In this document: in pieces, positions 3,095 through 18,023 of the stretch
How positions within the stretch are numbered: position 1 is the first letter of the stretch
How the letters are laid out: each line of letters starts with the position of its first letter
Assembly: GCA_944385125.1 (NCBI GenBank)
Contig: CALWVZ010000013.1
Coordinates: 1-41,015 of the forward strand
Length of the DNA: 41,015 nt
From: an uncultured Oscillospiraceae bacterium
GTDB taxonomy: Bacteria > Bacillota > Clostridia > Oscillospirales > Oscillospiraceae
Reading direction: 5' to 3'
The notes under the pieces: model-generated
The model's database searches: none
Told to the model about the DNA's origin: nothing
What the model saw: the letters and a program-made list of their open reading frames with translations, nothing else
Program-made: the position numbers and the translations under genes

Positions 3095-3659
3095 GGTCCA
3101 GCTCACCCCTTTTCCTTCCCTTATTCAGCTTCAGGCTTAGGCCCCGGCGCTCCGCCGCCTTTTGCAGCAGCTCCGCCGCGGCCCCCGCCCGCTCCTTGAC
3201 GGGCTGTTCCGCCAGCTCCTGGCGGCTTTCCAGTGAGGTCATCACGGAGCGCAGCTCTTCCAAATGCAGGAGATACGCTGCCGTGGTGAAAAGGCTCTTG
3301 CGGCGGCCGTCGTTGTAGTCCTTCAAAAGCGCTTCAAGGATGGAGCGCTTTTCCTCCGTCTCGGCCAGATAGGCCTCCAGCCCCAGCTCTCGGGCCCGGG
3401 CAAGGTCCTGCTTCCGGCGGCTGTGGGGGACAAAGGAATCCGCCTCGTCAAAGCCGTCGTAGCGGGGGCAGGGATATTCCGGGCAATCCAGGCAGAACTG
3501 CAGCCCGCCCTGCTCCAAAGAGCAGCGGGCCAGGGCACAGCTCTGGTTCCCCTCACCGCCGCCGCAGCCGGGGCAGTAGCCCCCCAGCTCCATTGGGCAG
3601 AGGGCACAGTTCAGCCCGCACAATGAGAAACGCAGTTCCTCCCGTATAAAGCCTTTCAT
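3060..3659 (-). CDS. DUF3795-type cysteine-rich protein
   Basis: About 199 residues. The N-terminal third is rich in cysteines in paired arrangements (SLCGLNCALCP, CPGCGGG, FCLDCPEYPCP), which suggests zinc or an iron-sulfur cluster. The remainder is helical with many charged residues. This matches the DUF3795 pattern common in anaerobic Firmicutes; the function is not known. ATG 3659 has GGGGGG upstream at good spacing and is chosen over GTG 3665. The 3' end overlaps the start of the GNAT gene, which implies translational coupling. Confidence 0.75.
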   Translation of the reverse strand: MKGFIREELRFSLCGLNCALCPMELGGYCPGCGGGEGNQSCALARCSLEQGGLQFCLDCPEYPCPRYDGFDEADSFVPHSRRKQDLARARELGLEAYLAETEEKRSILEALLKDYNDGRRKSLFTTAAYLLHLEELRSVMTSLESRQELAEQPVKERAGAAAELLQKAAERRGLSLKLNKGRKRGELDHGNKTGKGTGY

Positions 3660-12409: not shown

Positions 12410-15139
12410 ATGGTTACCAATAAAGAAAATTTATTTAAGCTCGGGAAAAAAATCACAGACAGAATACCCCAGCAGCTGGGGATCACAAAGATAACGGAGG
12501 ATGACCCTGAATACTGGGGCATGGTAAACGTGCTCACCGACGAGATGGTGGAAGTGGCCCTGAAGATGAAAAAGCGGGTTCCCATGTCTCTGGAGGAGCT
12601 GGCCAAGGCCACGGGCAAGGATAAAGACCGCCTGAGGGAAGTGCTCCATGAAATGGCGGTGGTAGGTCTGATTGAGTTCCATTGGGGCGAAAAGGGTCTG
12701 CCCATGACCGACGAGAACAAACGCTATGTACTGTGCATGTATGTCCCCGGCTCTGCGGAGATGCTGCTGATGCACAAGACCATCCCGGAAACAAATCCTG
12801 AAGTCAACCGCTTTTTTGAGCGTATGTCCTTTCTTCCTTTGGAGCACGTCACCCCCATGGTGCCTCCAGGCGGCGCCGGCATAGGCATGCACGTCATCCC
12901 TGTGGAGAAGGCCATACCCGCCCAGTCCCAGTCCCTGGACATCGAGCGCCTGTCCCACTGGCTGGATAAGTACGAGGGGCACCTGGGCGTGGGCGTATGC
13001 TCCTGCCGCCGCAGCGAAACTTTGCAGGGCCGGGGCTCCGGCGACGTGCCCGACGAATGGTGCATAGGCGTGGGCGAATTTGCCGATTACTGCGTGCAGA
13101 CCGGCAAGGGCAGGTATGCCACCAAGGAGGAGGTCCTGGACCTGCTGAAGCGGGCCGAGGACCTGGGCTATGTGCACCAGATAACCAATATCGACGGGGA
13201 GAACAAGATCTTCGGCATATGCAACTGTCCCACCGGCGTGTGCTATGCTCTTCGCACCTCCCAGTATTTCAACACCCCCAACCTGTCCCGCAGCGCCTAT
13301 GTGGCCCATGTGGACACTGAAAACTGCGTGGCCTGCGGCAAGTGCGTGGAGGTCTGCCCTGCAGGCGCCGCCAAGCTGGGCCAGAAGCTGTGCACCAAGA
13401 ACGGCCCCGTCCAGTACCCCAAACATGAGCTGCCGGACGCTGTGAAATGGGGGCCGGAGAAGTGGAGTCCCAATTACAAGGAAGATAACGAGATAAACTG
13501 CTATGATACCGGCACCGCTCCCTGCAAGACCGCCTGTCCTGCCCACATAGCCGTTCAGGGCTATATCAAGATGGCTGCCCAGGGCAGATATATGGACGCT
13601 CTGAAACTCATCAAGCAGGACAACCCCTTCCCCGCTGTTTGCGGCAGCATATGCAACCGCCGCTGCGAGGAAGAGTGTACCCGGGGCGATGTGGACCGGG
13701 CCGTGGCAATCGACGAGATAAAGAAATTCATAGCCGAGCAGGAGCTTAAAGAAGAAAATCGCTACATACCGCCTGTAAAGAACTTCCGTCCAACCCTGGA
13801 AAAATTCCCGGAGAAGATAGCCGTGATCGGCGCAGGCCCCGCAGGCATGAGCTGCGCCTATTACCTGGCCATGATGGGCTACGAGAACGTCACCGTCTTC
13901 GACCGCAACGCCGTCCCCGGCGGTATGCTCACCCTGGGCATTCCCTCCTTCCGTCTGGAGAAGGACGTAGTCAACGCCGAGATAGAGGTGCTGCGTCAGA
14001 TGGGCGTGAAGTTCCAGTGCGGCGTGGACGTGGGTAAGGACGTGAGCCTTGAGCAGCTGAGAGAGCAGGGCTATAAGGCTTTCTACCTGGCCATAGGCGC
14101 CCAGAAGTCCGCTCCCATCGGCGTCCCCGGCGAGGAGCTGGAGGGCGTTCTGGGCGGCGTGGATTTCCTGCGCCGGGTGAACCTGGGCGAGAAGCCGGAG
14201 ATAGGCGAAAAATGCGCCGTCATCGGCGGCGGCAATGTGGCCATGGACGTGTGCCGTACCGCCCTGCGCCTGGGAGCCAAGGACACCTATGTGCTCTACC
14301 GCCGCAGCCAGAGCGAGATGCCCGCCGACGAGGAAGAACTGGCCGAGGCCATGGAGGAGGGCGTCCAGTTCCGCTTCCTCACCAATATCACCGAGATAAT
14401 CGGCAGCGAAGGCAAGGTCAGCGCCGTGAAGGCAGAGCTTATGGAGCTGGGCGAAGCCGGCCCCGACGGCCGCCGCAAGCCCGTTGGCACAGGCAAATTT
14501 GAAACTATCGCCGTGGACAGCGTCATCGGAGCCGTGGGCCAGGTAATAGACCTGGGCGGCATAGCCCCTGAGGCCATGAGCTTCACCAAGAAGGGCACCG
14601 TCATCGTGGATGAGGTCACCGCCCAGACCGGCCAGAAGGATATCTTTGCCGGCGGCGACTTTGTCACCGGGCCCAGATTCGCTATAGACGCTATAGCGGC
14701 GGGCCGTGTGGGAGCCGAGTCCATCCACCGCTTTGTGCAGCCCGGCCAGGACCTGCGCATCCACCGCAACCTGAGGAAATTTGTCCAGTTGGACAAGTCC
14801 CAGGCCCTTATACCCATCGGCTTTGACAATGCCCCCCGTCAGGTCCCGGCTCACGACAAGGCCAAGGCCAAGAGCTTCCGCAACGACCGGGTCACCTTCA
14901 CCGAGGAACAGGTAAAGAAAGAGGCCGCCCGCTGCCTGGGCTGCGGGGCCACCGTGGTGGACGAGAACAAGTGCATCGGCTGCGGATTGTGCACCACCAA
15001 GTGCGAGTTCGACGCCATACATCTCCGCCGCGACCTGCCGGATTGCAGCAAGATGTACAGGGCCGAGGACAAGCTGAAGGCCATCCTCCCCTACGCAGCA
15101 AAGCGTGAAGTGCGCATACTGAAAAACAAGAATAAATAA
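12410..15139 (+). CDS. Multidomain iron-sulfur FAD/NAD(P) oxidoreductase
   Basis: 909 residues with AAGGGGG before ATG. In order: a winged-helix-like segment (~58-92, LEELAKATGKDKDRLREVL); a cysteine-rich domain (Cys197, 199, 218, 228, 271, 273, 278); a ferredoxin site (CVACGKCVEVCP, Cys306/309/312/316); a GltD/DPD-type domain (Cys372, 376, 411, 415, 419, 423); an FAD site GAGPAG (474-479); an NAD(P) site GGGNVAMD near 605; and a C-terminal cluster (CIGCGLCTTKC, Cys855/858/861/865). It resembles the glutamate synthase small subunit fused to ferredoxins. It presumably moves electrons between NAD(P)H and an iron-sulfur partner; the substrate is unknown. No glutamate synthase large subunit is nearby. 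Confidence 0.85.
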   Translation: MVTNKENLFKLGKKITDRIPQQLGITKITEDDPEYWGMVNVLTDEMVEVALKMKKRVPMSLEELAKATGKDKDRLREVLHEMAVVGLIEFHWGEKGLPMTDENKRYVLCMYVPGSAEMLLMHKTIPETNPEVNRFFERMSFLPLEHVTPMVPPGGAGIGMHVIPVEKAIPAQSQSLDIERLSHWLDKYEGHLGVGVCSCRRSETLQGRGSGDVPDEWCIGVGEFADYCVQTGKGRYATKEEVLDLLKRAEDLGYVHQITNIDGENKIFGICNCPTGVCYALRTSQYFNTPNLSRSAYVAHVDTENCVACGKCVEVCPAGAAKLGQKLCTKNGPVQYPKHELPDAVKWGPEKWSPNYKEDNEINCYDTGTAPCKTACPAHIAVQGYIKMAAQGRYMDALKLIKQDNPFPAVCGSICNRRCEEECTRGDVDRAVAIDEIKKFIAEQELKEENRYIPPVKNFRPTLEKFPEKIAVIGAGPAGMSCAYYLAMMGYENVTVFDRNAVPGGMLTLGIPSFRLEKDVVNAEIEVLRQMGVKFQCGVDVGKDVSLEQLREQGYKAFYLAIGAQKSAPIGVPGEELEGVLGGVDFLRRVNLGEKPEIGEKCAVIGGGNVAMDVCRTALRLGAKDTYVLYRRSQSEMPADEEELAEAMEEGVQFRFLTNITEIIGSEGKVSAVKAELMELGEAGPDGRRKPVGTGKFETIAVDSVIGAVGQVIDLGGIAPEAMSFTKKGTVIVDEVTAQTGQKDIFAGGDFVTGPRFAIDAIAAGRVGAESIHRFVQPGQDLRIHRNLRKFVQLDKSQALIPIGFDNAPRQVPAHDKAKAKSFRNDRVTFTEEQVKKEAARCLGCGATVVDENKCIGCGLCTTKCEFDAIHLRRDLPDCSKMYRAEDKLKAILPYAAKREVRILKNKNK

Positions 15140-15228: not shown

Positions 15229-15879
15229 TTACTCTTCGCTATATATCATATCTATGCCGGTCTGGAGAGTCTCGGCGTCTATGGCCCCGGTAGCTTTGGC
15301 CACGGCGGAGCCGTCGGCTCCGATGAAATAAGTGCTGGGCAGGGAGTAGACGCTGTAGGTTATGGCGGCATCCATGTCCGTGTCAAAGAGCACCGGGAAG
15401 CTATAGCCTTTTTCGGCTATGAAAGCGGAAGCGGTGTCCAGCGTCTCCCGGGAGCCGTCGGTCATGTTCACCATAAGAAACTGCACATTCTGCCCCAGCT
15501 TCTCGTAGGCCTCATTGAAGTCTGGCATCTCGCTCTGGCAGGGACCGCACCAGCTGGCCCAGAAGTTTAGAACGATGGGCTTGCCGAAATAGTCGGAGAG
15601 CTTCACCGCATTGCCTTCAGCGTCATATACCGTAAAGTCCGGAGCCTGCACGCTCTCCTCTGCATCGTCCGAGTCCTCTTCTTCCCCGCTCTCCTCTGTA
15701 GCTGCGTCGGGCTGGGGAGACGGCGAGACTCCGGCTGCCGGGACCTGGTCCCCGCCCTGGACCTGAAGCTGTTGAGGGCTGTAGCCTGAGCTGAGCCGCC
15801 CGTATAGGAAGCCCGCTCCGCCGATTAGCAGGACCAGGACCAATATTATGATGGGCAATATACGTTTATCTTTGTTCAT
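15229..15879 (-). CDS. TlpA/ResA-like membrane-anchored thioredoxin
   Basis: 216 residues: an N-terminal membrane anchor (residues 7-27), an acidic linker (~60-78), then a TlpA/AhpC-type thioredoxin domain (79-216) with the active site WCGPC (Cys111, Cys114) and the cis-proline loop LPSTYF. It should act outside the membrane, reducing disulfides with electrons passed by CcdA. AAGGAGG precedes ATG. It lies 11 bases after ccdA, at the end of the DUF6132-ccdA-tlpA operon. Confidence 0.9.
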   Translation of the reverse strand: MNKDKRILPIIILVLVLLIGGAGFLYGRLSSGYSPQQLQVQGGDQVPAAGVSPSPQPDAATEESGEEEDSDDAEESVQAPDFTVYDAEGNAVKLSDYFGKPIVLNFWASWCGPCQSEMPDFNEAYEKLGQNVQFLMVNMTDGSRETLDTASAFIAEKGYSFPVLFDTDMDAAITYSVYSLPSTYFIGADGSAVAKATGAIDAETLQTGIDMIYSEE

Positions 15880-15890
15880 GGCGTCCTCCT

Positions 15891-16553
15891 TCAGCTCAGC
15901 AGAGCCAGCATACGGCCCAGGGTCCCGGTGGCCATCATTATGCCGATGAGCACCAGCAGGCAGCCGCAGACTATGTTTATTACTTTATAGTTGCGCTTTA
16001 TCCAGTCGAAAGCAGATTTAAGGTAGTCGATAAGCAGGGCGCTGAGCACAAAGGGTATGCCCAGTCCCAGGGAATAGGCCAGCAGCATCAGGGTGCCGGT
16101 GAGAGCCTGGCCCTGCTGGGAGGCCAGCATCAGCGCCGAGCCCAGGAAGGCCCCAACGCAGGGGGTCCAGCTGATGGAGAACACCAGGCCAAAAACCAGA
16201 GCCGGGAAAAAACCCATGTTCTCCGTTTTCAGCTGACGGCCGCCGCCGTGGAAAAGGTTCAGCCTGATCACGCCCAGAAAGCTCAGGCCGAAGAAGATCA
16301 CCACCAGGCCCGAGACTATGTTCACCGCCGTCTGGTGGTTTTTCAGAAAACTGCCCACGGTGCCGGCCAAGGCCCCCAGAGCCATAAAGGTTATAGTGAA
16401 GCCTGCCACAAAACCCAGAGCCGCTCTCAGTGTCTTAAGGTGGCTGCGCTCCCCGCCTCCGGCAAAATAGGAGACGTATATGGGCAGCATAGGCAGCAGG
16501 CAGGGTGATATGAAGGTTATGATGCCTTCAAGGAAAGATATCAGGTATTGCAC
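15891..16553 (-). CDS. ccdA: CcdA-type thiol-electron transporter
   Basis: 220 residues with six hydrophobic helices. The two redox cysteines are in SPCLLPM (Cys18) and WTPCVGA (Cys132), the CcdA/DsbD-beta pattern. It carries electrons from cytoplasmic thioredoxin to an outer thioredoxin-like protein, here probably the TlpA-like product of the next gene. GTG 16553 has GGAG 8 bases upstream and overlaps the end of the DUF6132 gene by 13 bases. No cytochrome c genes are near, so general disulfide reduction is the better guess for its role. Confidence 0.9.
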   Translation of the reverse strand: MQYLISFLEGIITFISPCLLPMLPIYVSYFAGGGERSHLKTLRAALGFVAGFTITFMALGALAGTVGSFLKNHQTAVNIVSGLVVIFFGLSFLGVIRLNLFHGGGRQLKTENMGFFPALVFGLVFSISWTPCVGAFLGSALMLASQQGQALTGTLMLLAYSLGLGIPFVLSALLIDYLKSAFDWIKRNYKVINIVCGCLLVLIGIMMATGTLGRMLALLS

Positions 16554-16747
16554 TCTTTATTCTCCTTTTCGGTAATGGCAGCCACCAGAGCGCCTATCAC
16601 CGCCACATATATCATAGAACGCCAGGGGCTGGAGGTGATGGCGCAGCTGCCGTCGCAGCCGAAGAAATAGTAATAGATATAACCCAGCGCCGCTCCTCCC
16701 AGAACAAAGAGGGCCGTGCGCAGTATCTTCCTGTATTTTTCTTTCAT
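16541..16747 (-). CDS. DUF6132-type small membrane protein
   Basis: 68 residues. Two membrane helices flank the conserved segment FFGCDGSCAITSSPWRS, whose two cysteines and SSPW motif typify the DUF6132 family, often found next to thioredoxin and CcdA genes. The longer frame to 16807 crosses the promoter, so ATG 16747, with AGGAG 8 bases upstream, is the start. It is the first gene of the thiol-redox operon. A role in membrane thiol exchange is inferred from context alone. Confidence 0.8.
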   Translation of the reverse strand: MKEKYRKILRTALFVLGGAALGYIYYYFFGCDGSCAITSSPWRSMIYVAVIGALVAAITEKENKECNT

Positions 16748-16805: not shown

Positions 16806-16834
16806 ATTATACCCCTTTGGGTTTATCCTGTCGG
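16806..16834 (-). promoter_or_regulatory. Promoter of the DUF6132-ccdA-tlpA operon
   Basis: On the minus strand: CCGACA (16829-16834), 17 bases, TATAAT (16806-16811). The predicted start is near 16799. A GTGA-N5-TCAC site is centred at 16840, that is at -41. Confidence 0.7.
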
Positions 16835-16846
16835 TGACCATATCAC
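16834..16846. promoter_or_regulatory. Candidate Crp/Fnr-type operator, copy 1
   Basis: GTGA-CCATA-TCAC lies between the divergent promoters of the redox operon and the Crp/Fnr gene. It is centred at -41 for the former and about -46 for the latter. The same motif occurs before trxA. Confidence 0.55.
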
Positions 16847-16850
16847 TCAG

Positions 16851-16879
16851 TTGACATCGGGATAAAAGACCTATATACT
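16851..16879 (+). promoter_or_regulatory. Promoter of the Crp/Fnr regulator gene
   Basis: Perfect TTGACA (16851-16856), 17 bases, TATACT (16874-16879). Confidence 0.8.
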
Positions 16880-16903
16880 TGACTGAGCAAAGGAGGGTAA
16901 TGT

Positions 16904-17563
16904 ATGGAGCTGAGAGATTTTTTCCCCATGTGGGACAAGCTGGAGCCAGGCCTGAGGCAGGCACTGGAGAGATCCGCCGGACAGCGCAGCGTAAAAAAAG
17001 CTGAGATCATACACAGCGGGGACATGGACTGTACCGGGCTGTACCTGGTAGTATCCGGCCAGCTTCGGGCCTATATCCTGTCGGAGGAGGGCCGGGAGAT
17101 AAGCATATACCGCCTTTTCCCCCGGGACGTCTGTCTCTTCTCCGCCTCCTGCATCATGCGCAGCATCCAGTTCCAGGTTACCATCCAGGCGGAGAAAGAC
17201 TCCCTGCTGTATGTGATCCCGGCGGAAACATACAAAGGGCTGATGGAACAGTCCGCCCCTCTGGCAAACTACACCAATGAGATAATGGCCAGCCGCTTTT
17301 CTGAGGTGATGTGGCTCATAGAGCAGGTCATGTGGAAAAGCTTTGACAAGCGCCTGGCGGCTTTCCTGCTGGAGGAATCAGCCCTGGAGGGCAGCCCGGT
17401 TTTGAAGACCACCCACGAACTAATAGCAAATCACCTGGGCAGCGCCCGGGAGGTGGTAACAAGAATGCTCCGCTATTTCCAGAGCGAGGGCATGGTGAAG
17501 CTGAGCCGTGGCTCCATAGAGCTCACCGATGCCCGGGCCCTGGAGGAGCTTCGGGACGGCTGA
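16904..17563 (+). CDS. Crp/Fnr-family transcription regulator
   Basis: 219 residues: cyclic-nucleotide-binding-type barrel (~10-120), dimer helix (~122-148) and C-terminal winged helix. The recognition helix GSAREVVTRML has Arg182, Glu183 and Arg187 at the positions that in E. coli CRP (R180, E181, R185) read TGTGA. It lacks the N-terminal cysteine cluster of FNR but has Cys43, Cys77 and Cys83, which could sense thiol state (inference). AAAGGAGG precedes ATG. It is divergent from the ccdA operon and convergent with trxA, and the GTGA-N5-TCAC sites before both suggest it activates them. Confidence 0.88.
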   Translation: MELRDFFPMWDKLEPGLRQALERSAGQRSVKKAEIIHSGDMDCTGLYLVVSGQLRAYILSEEGREISIYRLFPRDVCLFSASCIMRSIQFQVTIQAEKDSLLYVIPAETYKGLMEQSAPLANYTNEIMASRFSEVMWLIEQVMWKSFDKRLAAFLLEESALEGSPVLKTTHELIANHLGSAREVVTRMLRYFQSEGMVKLSRGSIELTDARALEELRDG

Positions 17564-17582
17564 GTTTGATGCTTGATATAAA

Positions 17583-17624
17583 GAGCACCCGCTGCAATAT
17601 CTGTTTTTGCAGCGGGTGTCTTTT
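17583..17624. terminator. Bidirectional terminator between crp-like gene and trxA
   Basis: CACCCGCTGC (17586-17595) pairs with GCAGCGGGTG (17609-17618). TCTTTT follows on the plus strand, and AAAGAG gives a U-rich tail on the minus strand. Confidence 0.85.
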
Positions 17625-17633
17625 ACAGTCTGC

Positions 17634-17939
17634 TTACAGCATTGCCAGTATCTGGCTTTTGGGTCTTGCGCCCATAGACTGGTTTACTATCTTCCCGTCT
17701 TTAAAGACGATCAGGGTGGGTATGCTCATGATTCCGAACTGCCTTGCCAGCTCCGGCTGCTCATCCACATTCACCTTGCAAACCTTTATGTCGCTGCGCT
17801 CCTCAGCGATCTCATCAAGCACGGGAGCTATCATCCGGCAGGGGCCGCACCAGCTGGCCCAGAAGTCCAGCAGCACCGGCTTGGAACTGTTTACGACCTC
17901 TTCCTGAAAACTGTTCTTATCTACATGGATAACAGACAT
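17634..17939 (-). CDS. trxA: Thioredoxin
   Basis: 101 residues, a classical cytoplasmic thioredoxin: FWASWCGPCRMIAP (Cys31, Cys34), the cis-proline loop MSIPTLIVF and a C-terminal helix. It reduces protein disulfides and can pass electrons to CcdA. AGGAGG precedes ATG. It is a single-gene unit with a TATAAT box but no good -35 element; a GTGA-N5-TCAC site lies where the -35 would be. No thioredoxin reductase is present in the window. Confidence 0.93.
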   Translation of the reverse strand: MSVIHVDKNSFQEEVVNSSKPVLLDFWASWCGPCRMIAPVLDEIAEERSDIKVCKVNVDEQPELARQFGIMSIPTLIVFKDGKIVNQSMGARPKSQILAML

Positions 17940-17974
17940 TTTTTCGTCCTCCTGTCTCTTTGTTTTGTAGCTTT

Positions 17975-18023
17975 ATTATACCCACAGTATCCGCCCTTAT
18001 CAGTGATAATGTCACATAAGGGC
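17975..18023 (-). promoter_or_regulatory. trxA promoter with Crp/Fnr-type operator, copy 2
   Basis: TATAAT on the minus strand at 17975-17980 gives a start near 17968. No acceptable -35 exists. Instead GTGA-CATTA-TCAC (minus strand, 18003-18015) is centred at -41, the class II activator position. It is enclosed by an 8-bp inverted repeat, GCCCTTAT/ATAAGGGC (17993-18000/18016-18023). Confidence 0.6.

Follow-up and report, generated by a model that had tools for sequence, protein, structure and literature searches.

A Crp/Fnr-family regulator, an odd-centred operator and a candidate thiol and oxygen-defence regulon in Clostridia

Does a Crp/Fnr-family regulator control the thiol redox operons that lie on either side of its own gene, and if so, by which operator, in how many genomes and in response to what signal? 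The question is raised by a contig of an uncultured Oscillospiraceae bacterium, of which the whole stretch analysed, 41,015 nucleotides, is called the window here. In it the regulator gene is flanked by DUF6132-ccdA-tlpA and, at its other end, by trxA, both encoded on the minus strand. We hold with considerable confidence that a Crp/Fnr activator reads the word GTGAYNNNRTCAC at class II promoters of thiol and oxygen-defence genes, probably upon an oxidative or thiol-stress trigger. The operator, the promoter geometry, the conservation, the linkage and the target list come directly from computation. What had been noticed on this DNA is confirmed and far exceeds chance expectation, and the original prediction was essentially right.

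Operators and promoters of the locus

The features on which the argument depends are the following:

16904..17563, plus strand: Crp/Fnr-family regulator gene, 219 aa (PF00027 and PF13545; orthologs)
16541..16747, minus strand: DUF6132 protein (PF19628)
15891..16553, minus strand: CcdA (DsbD_TM; PF02683)
15229..15879, minus strand: TlpA/ResA-like thioredoxin-fold protein (PF00578; NF002854 below cut-off)
17634..17939, minus strand: thioredoxin TrxA (TIGR01068 above cut-off)
16834..16846, no strand assigned: operator GTGA-N5-TCAC, centred at -41 of the predicted DUF6132-ccdA-tlpA promoter
18003..18015, no strand assigned: operator GTGA-N5-TCAC, centred at -41 of the predicted trxA promoter
16829..16834, minus strand: -35 hexamer CCGACA of the ccdA operon promoter (promoter scan)
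16806..16811, minus strand: -10 TATAAT of the ccdA operon promoter (promoter scan)
17998..18003, minus strand: -35 hexamer CTGATA of trxA (promoter scan)
17975..17980, minus strand: -10 TATAAT of trxA (promoter scan)
16851..16856, plus strand: -35 TTGACA of the regulator's own promoter
16874..16879, plus strand: -10 TATACT of the regulator's own promoter

Both operators were found where the original prediction had placed them, at 16834-16846 and 18003-18015, and both are centred at -41, as it had also proposed, when the start is taken 7 nt after TATAAT. The promoter scan reads CCGACA-17-TATAAT before the ccdA operon, CTGATA-17-TATAAT before trxA and TTGACA-17-TATACT before the regulator, and at either target promoter the operator and the -35 hexamer share one base, the C that ends the one and begins the other. 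The earlier claim that trxA lacks a -35 box did not stand, since CTGATA, a weak hexamer with 4 of 6 bases, is present and abuts the operator. The first base behind TCAC is T or C, not R, in both window promoters.

The exact word occurs three times in the window, against a shuffle mean of 0.44, and a count of three was reached in 2 of 100 shuffles. The third copy, at 3233-3245, was rejected as a target, as it lies inside an ORF, carries G at position 5 and falls outside its own genome's composite sites (see below); we take it as a chance occurrence. Autoregulation as the main role of the site at 16834 is not favoured, the window -10 at 22 nt being on the divergent side. In the loci L050, L068, L117, L120 and L132 too, the bases that follow TCAC indicate the divergent gene and not the regulator as the target, with L248 as the exception.

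Two other features adjoin these genes. A 909-aa protein encoded at 12410-15139 (plus strand), next to the tlpA end of the ccdA operon, combines an ArsR-like HTH segment, 4Fe-4S domains and a GltD/YgfK-type pyridine-nucleotide-disulfide oxidoreductase. Directly 3' of the regulator gene, at 17586-17624 (plus strand), a hairpin with a T tail reads by eye as a likely terminator; it is absent from the output of the terminator scan, which has a loop limit of 8.

The geometry of the two promoters recurs in relatives. Alignment of 73 trxA promoters, restricted to the exact word and to matches of at least 48% identity, gives the consensus WnnGTGAYNWNRTCAC-RGAA-TATAAT at a fixed distance. Because these promoters were selected on the exact word, its eight bases are invariant by construction and the other positions are the informative ones: A/T stands at -3 in all 73, Y follows GTGA in 71 and R precedes TCAC in 69, while the four letters behind TCAC are R in 68, G in 71, A in 66 and A in 58. 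The -10 box begins 22 nt after TCAC in 59 of the 73 and 21 nt after it in 9, and 7 nt after the -10 an A, likely the transcription start, is found in 64. Among 54 trxA promoters linked to the regulator, the best -10 lies at an offset of 21-22 in 53, when 200 letter shuffles gave a mean of 2.0 and a maximum of 6. RGAA is what survives of a -35 hexamer whose spacer measures 17 bp.

At class II promoters CRP places its downstream half-site at -38 to -35. The operator centre near -41 of the predicted start, the weak -35 and the fixed distance to the -10 are all found here, and the layout is, as judged from the sequence, that of predicted class II activation. The regulator dimer would read the odd-centred palindrome with the promoter-side TCAC at -38 to -35, its last base serving also as the first of the degraded -35 hexamer, so that RNA polymerase would need the bound regulator. 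That the sites are instead a repressor operator, or that the trxA site is the stem of a transcription terminator, we regard as very unlikely. The trxA word does lie inside CCCTTAT...ATAAGGG and is followed by a T run on the plus strand; however, the 29-nt hairpin is weak (-6.8 kcal/mol in the window, a median of -4.9, and -8 or lower in only 8 of 54) and thus not a general property of these sites, and the terminator scan reports none at the trxA site, for which reasons the hairpin reading was rejected. As to a repressor, the fixed distance to the -10 together with the degraded -35 is what would be expected of activation.

Conservation of the operator and identity of its reader

The conservation in relatives that the original prediction had named as its check was seen: the exact N5 word precedes 54 of the 58 different trxA genes that share a locus with the regulator, and none of the 27 thioredoxin loci taken from genomes that lack it (Fisher 3e-18, related sequences being treated as independent). 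With spacers of 2-9 scanned, spacer 3 occurred before one of the 58 and spacer 6 before none. These 58 genes were sampled for nearness to the regulator, and the set excludes thioredoxin matches below 50% identity, partial genes, those with less than 120 bp upstream and duplicates. The 27 non-carrier loci, each represented by its best match and drawn from the 18 of 20 genomes that had a locus, held no spacer form at all; for the 15 of them at 45% identity or more, the absence of the word was also established by eye (0 of 15). Upstream of the regulator genes themselves (at least 53% identity), the exact N5 word lies within 250 bp in 17 of 65 regions, against 0.1 in shuffles, and spacers 3, 4, 6, 7 and 8 occur 1, 1, 0, 0 and 0 times, loci with less than 100 bp upstream or with matches starting after residue 60 being excluded. 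In the two closest relatives the two operators are kept, as are the -10 boxes of both targets and the promoter of the regulator itself.

A further question is whether the Crp/Fnr gene is the reader of these sites or a mere neighbour of them. We consider it unlikely that the operator and regulon are real and another regulator reads them. The binding by the window regulator is inferred, its own genome holds a second Crp/Fnr-like gene, 23% identical to it, and N5 words exceed the control in non-carrier genomes too. Against this stand the contrast of 0 of 27 with 54 of 58 just described, the R-E-x3-R helix of the regulator, which fits GTGA half-sites, and the presence of the site upstream of the regulator genes. 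The regulator very probably binds the N5 sites and activates from them. To the notion that the trxA word serves no function and was passed on as part of the regulator-trxA block we give almost no credence: the trxA sample was chosen by regulator linkage, which speaks for that notion, but unlinked sites stand before other redox genes, the N5 spacing persists in families throughout the class, and in the locus L172 the spacer bases differ while GTGA and TCAC are kept.

In 30 genomes with only the class of regulators that is 40-48% identical, trxA carries N5 in 19; of the 11 without it, two have N6. These natural N6 operators, GTGACTTTGGTCAC and GTGACCGTAGTCAC, precede trxA in L300 and L303, from two genomes (G256 and G212) whose only regulator is of this more distant class. 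Within the family, 121 of 300 genomes hold a relative of the regulator at E 1e-15 or better. In the class-level draw (the class taken as Clostridia), the protein was present in 32 of 196 genomes at 1e-60; 28 loci outside the family, a set from which the family members L394 and L396 are excluded, show N5 in 12, N6 in 2 and spacers 3, 4, 7 and 8 in none, and among 13 trxA genes outside the family N5 precedes 6 and N6 one, 7 being without N5.

The regulator was absent from all five other members of the genus that were drawn, and their best thioredoxin loci are without the operator. Because congeners lack the gene and the host assembly, a draft of 86 contigs, is 76% complete, the regulator contig could be horizontally acquired or mis-binned; patchy gain or loss could also explain the distribution.

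Extent of the candidate regulon

The bare word is weak evidence, because the 2.0-Mb own genome holds 12 copies and its reversed control 5. Over 60 genomes bare GTGAYNNNRTCAC was rejected as a definer of the regulon, since carriers and non-carriers alike exceed the reversed control (by hand count, a mean of 7.3 in 36 carriers versus 6.6 in 14 non-carriers). Requiring a -10 beside the word separates the two better. Such composite sites, defined as the word with TANNNT 21-23 nt behind it, number by hand sums 191 against 33 in the control for 60 carriers, and 32 against 12 for 20 non-carriers. A stricter pattern, in which GTGAYNNNRTCAC is followed by RG[A/T], fits none of the 32 non-carrier composite sites (by eye) and was found in 15 of 16 regulator-bearing genomes versus 1 of 14 class genomes without a regulator match at 1e-60. 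Because TCAC is followed by T or C at the two window sites, the stricter pattern detects neither of them, and it finds only one site in the own genome; the complete carrier genome G078 has zero composite sites.

The own genome has three composite sites against none in its control, namely the two window operators and that site, C66:5207-5247, and each precedes a thiol or sulfur redox operon. C66:5207-5247 lies before a rhodanese gene (PF00581), and the frame that follows this gene, judged by its sequence alone, is similar to L044's CoA-disulfide reductase (TIGR03385 below cut-off). The two operons of the original prediction are joined by this third promoter and by the oxygen-defence targets in relatives, so that the candidate regulon is larger than had been proposed. 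In its own genome the regulator would turn on thioredoxin, the DUF6132-CcdA-TlpA operon and the rhodanese/CoA-disulfide-reductase-like operon.

In relatives the targets are largely redox genes. For each of 224 different sites in the loci examined, the gene that follows was taken by a simple first-ORF rule that makes single cases less sure; families were assigned from one or two representatives each, and the proportions are biased because most loci were chosen for nearness to the regulator or for trxA. With this in view, thioredoxin was the first gene in 105 cases, thioredoxin reductase or a Trx-TrxB fusion in 16, a short-chain dehydrogenase in 11, rhodanese in 10, rubredoxin/rubrerythrin in 10, DUF6132 in 8, the regulator in 7, a pyruvoyl-tetrahydropterin-synthase-like gene in 4, CoA-disulfide reductase in 3 and CcdA in 2. 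Seen once or twice each were desulfoferrodoxin, ferritin, flavodiiron protein, MsrAB, a ferredoxin-thioredoxin reductase chain and a ZIP transporter, and further single cases have no family assigned. A separate scan places the site directly before 5 of 29 DUF6132/ccdA genes, an undercount in view of L171, which has the site, and of the 8 DUF6132 and 2 CcdA first genes just given; L115 and L127 have a thioredoxin-type gene with the site ahead of their DUF6132/ccdA genes. The regulator of relatives would also turn on thioredoxin reductase and, in some of them, rubrerythrin, desulfoferrodoxin, ferritin, flavodiiron protein or MsrAB, genes of which some genomes show trxB or one of the others behind the site.

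Two observations on individual target genes may be added. The second commonest first gene (30 of 224) encodes a small two-cluster ferredoxin of 67-70 aa, as in L047, L048, L054, L064, L106 and L107, with one representative scanned. In L391 (G193:C65:7300-9900) two desulfoferrodoxin-like genes, one of them domain-scanned, stand in tandem, each preceded by an N5 operator and a -10 of its own.

The regulator protein, its signal and its known relatives

The protein combines a cNMP-binding-type barrel (PF00027, E 3.6e-12) with a C-terminal Crp-type HTH (PF13545, E 6.6e-16), the make-up of the Crp/Fnr family. Its recognition helix (residues 182-194 in the structure model, mean pLDDT 87) reads R182-E183-V-V-T-R187, as had been predicted, and among 158 distinct relatives (partial, interrupted and duplicate proteins excluded) R182 and E183 are kept in all and R187 in 156. 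The same set keeps C43 in 158, C77 in 156 and C83 in 158, the three cysteines already named by the prediction, and no other conserved cysteine was found in it; in the model C43 precedes a strand, C77 precedes a short helix and C83 lies inside that helix. The nearest solved structure is that of EUBREC_1222 (PDB 3dv8; Eubacterium rectale, putative crp/fnr-family transcriptional regulator), a full-length ortholog, 65% identical, with the same three cysteines and the same R-E-x3-R helix, to which the model superposes only loosely (TM 0.58, rmsd 14.6). The structure was deposited without function and had no literature match among open-licence papers, and to our knowledge no function, operator or regulon is known for proteins of this kind. 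The regulator and EUBREC_1222/3dv8 belong to one Crp/Fnr subfamily, whose sensor domain has CLFSASC as its hallmark.

Comparison with better-known members places it apart. E. coli CRP at class II promoters shares the GTGA/TCAC half-sites and the R-E-x3-R helix, with a spacer of 6 instead of 5. Six bases between GA and TC are usual, not strictly defining, for Crp/Fnr operators, and here spacer 5 occurs in 54 of 58 and spacer 6 in none. The cassette that binds the cAMP phosphate, which characterises cAMP-CRP, was not found, the aligned region reading RDVCLFSASC. FNR, of the same family and fold, has N-terminal cysteines for a [4Fe-4S] cluster, oxygen-linked regulation and the word TTGAT-N4-ATCAA; no FNR-type N-terminal cysteine set was found here, only C43, C77 and C83 being conserved. 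CooA is among the better-scoring solved structures and its sensor loop aligns with C77-C83, yet L78 and S80 stand at what we take to be the places of its Cys/His heme ligands. PerR, a Fur-family repressor, is a functional analogue with no kinship to the regulator. In anaerobes PerR is predicted to control rubrerythrin (PMC545781). The available text of the same source also describes HcpR of Desulfovibrio and clostridia, likewise a Crp/Fnr regulator of anaerobes with Arg180, whose operator is TTGTGA-N6-TCACAA and whose core target is hcp/frdX, one listed site preceding an arylsulfatase-thioredoxin-thioredoxin-reductase operon; it gives the CooA operator as TGTCGGCnnGCCGACA, with a spacing of 6 versus 5 in the window. 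R182, E183 and R187 agree with its Arg180 rule for TGTGA recognition and thus fit GTGA half-sites (PMC545781). HcpR of P. gingivalis (9day) is only 21-23% identical to the window regulator, the operator here is N5, and hcp was not found among the target families scanned, a subset of the clusters.

What the regulator senses is most likely oxidative or thiol stress, which it may read via C43, C77 and C83. It is a real possibility, somewhat short of probable, that the regulon is the same and the signal another, namely O2, NO, polysulfide or a metabolite, sensed by a pocket in which a ligand, heme or an iron-sulfur cluster is bound and the cysteines act as ligands. The alignment of the C77-C83 loop with the CooA sensor loop is consistent with this, three conserved cysteines could hold a cluster, and rhodanese and CoA-disulfide reductase as targets would suit sulfane sulfur; however, S80 stands at the CooA place with no heme-ligand histidine, and the target list fits simple thiol stress equally. 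Under oxidative or thiol stress the activator would bring polymerase to the -35-poor promoters of genes for thiol repair and oxygen removal.

No paper on the regulator or its operator was found in open-licence full texts, an absence only weakly shown because the family name is hard to search. In C. difficile, trx genes are induced by O2 and a common, still uncharacterised regulator has been supposed (PMC10880999); the words crp and fnr have 0 occurrences in the available main text of that paper. Little is known of oxygen sensing and thiol repair in strictly anaerobic gut Clostridia, and what was found here has, from sequence comparison, the look of a regulon for oxygen and thiol stress whose activator, of the Crp/Fnr family, occurs across the class. 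It may be, though we hold it somewhat less likely than not, that this is a master oxygen/thiol-stress activator of anaerobic Clostridia, with a Crp/Fnr fold and independent of FNR, which senses oxidation through three pocket cysteines (by a cluster, heme or a disulfide) and grips an odd-centred operator. As that operator is one base shorter than the CRP/FNR word, the dimer would have to hold DNA in a different half-site register, and the 5-base spacer poses a well-defined question about the geometry of Crp/Fnr dimers. In many genera the regulon can be recognised from a single operator that the eye can pick out, which together with the deposited crystal structure of an ortholog makes the matter directly testable.
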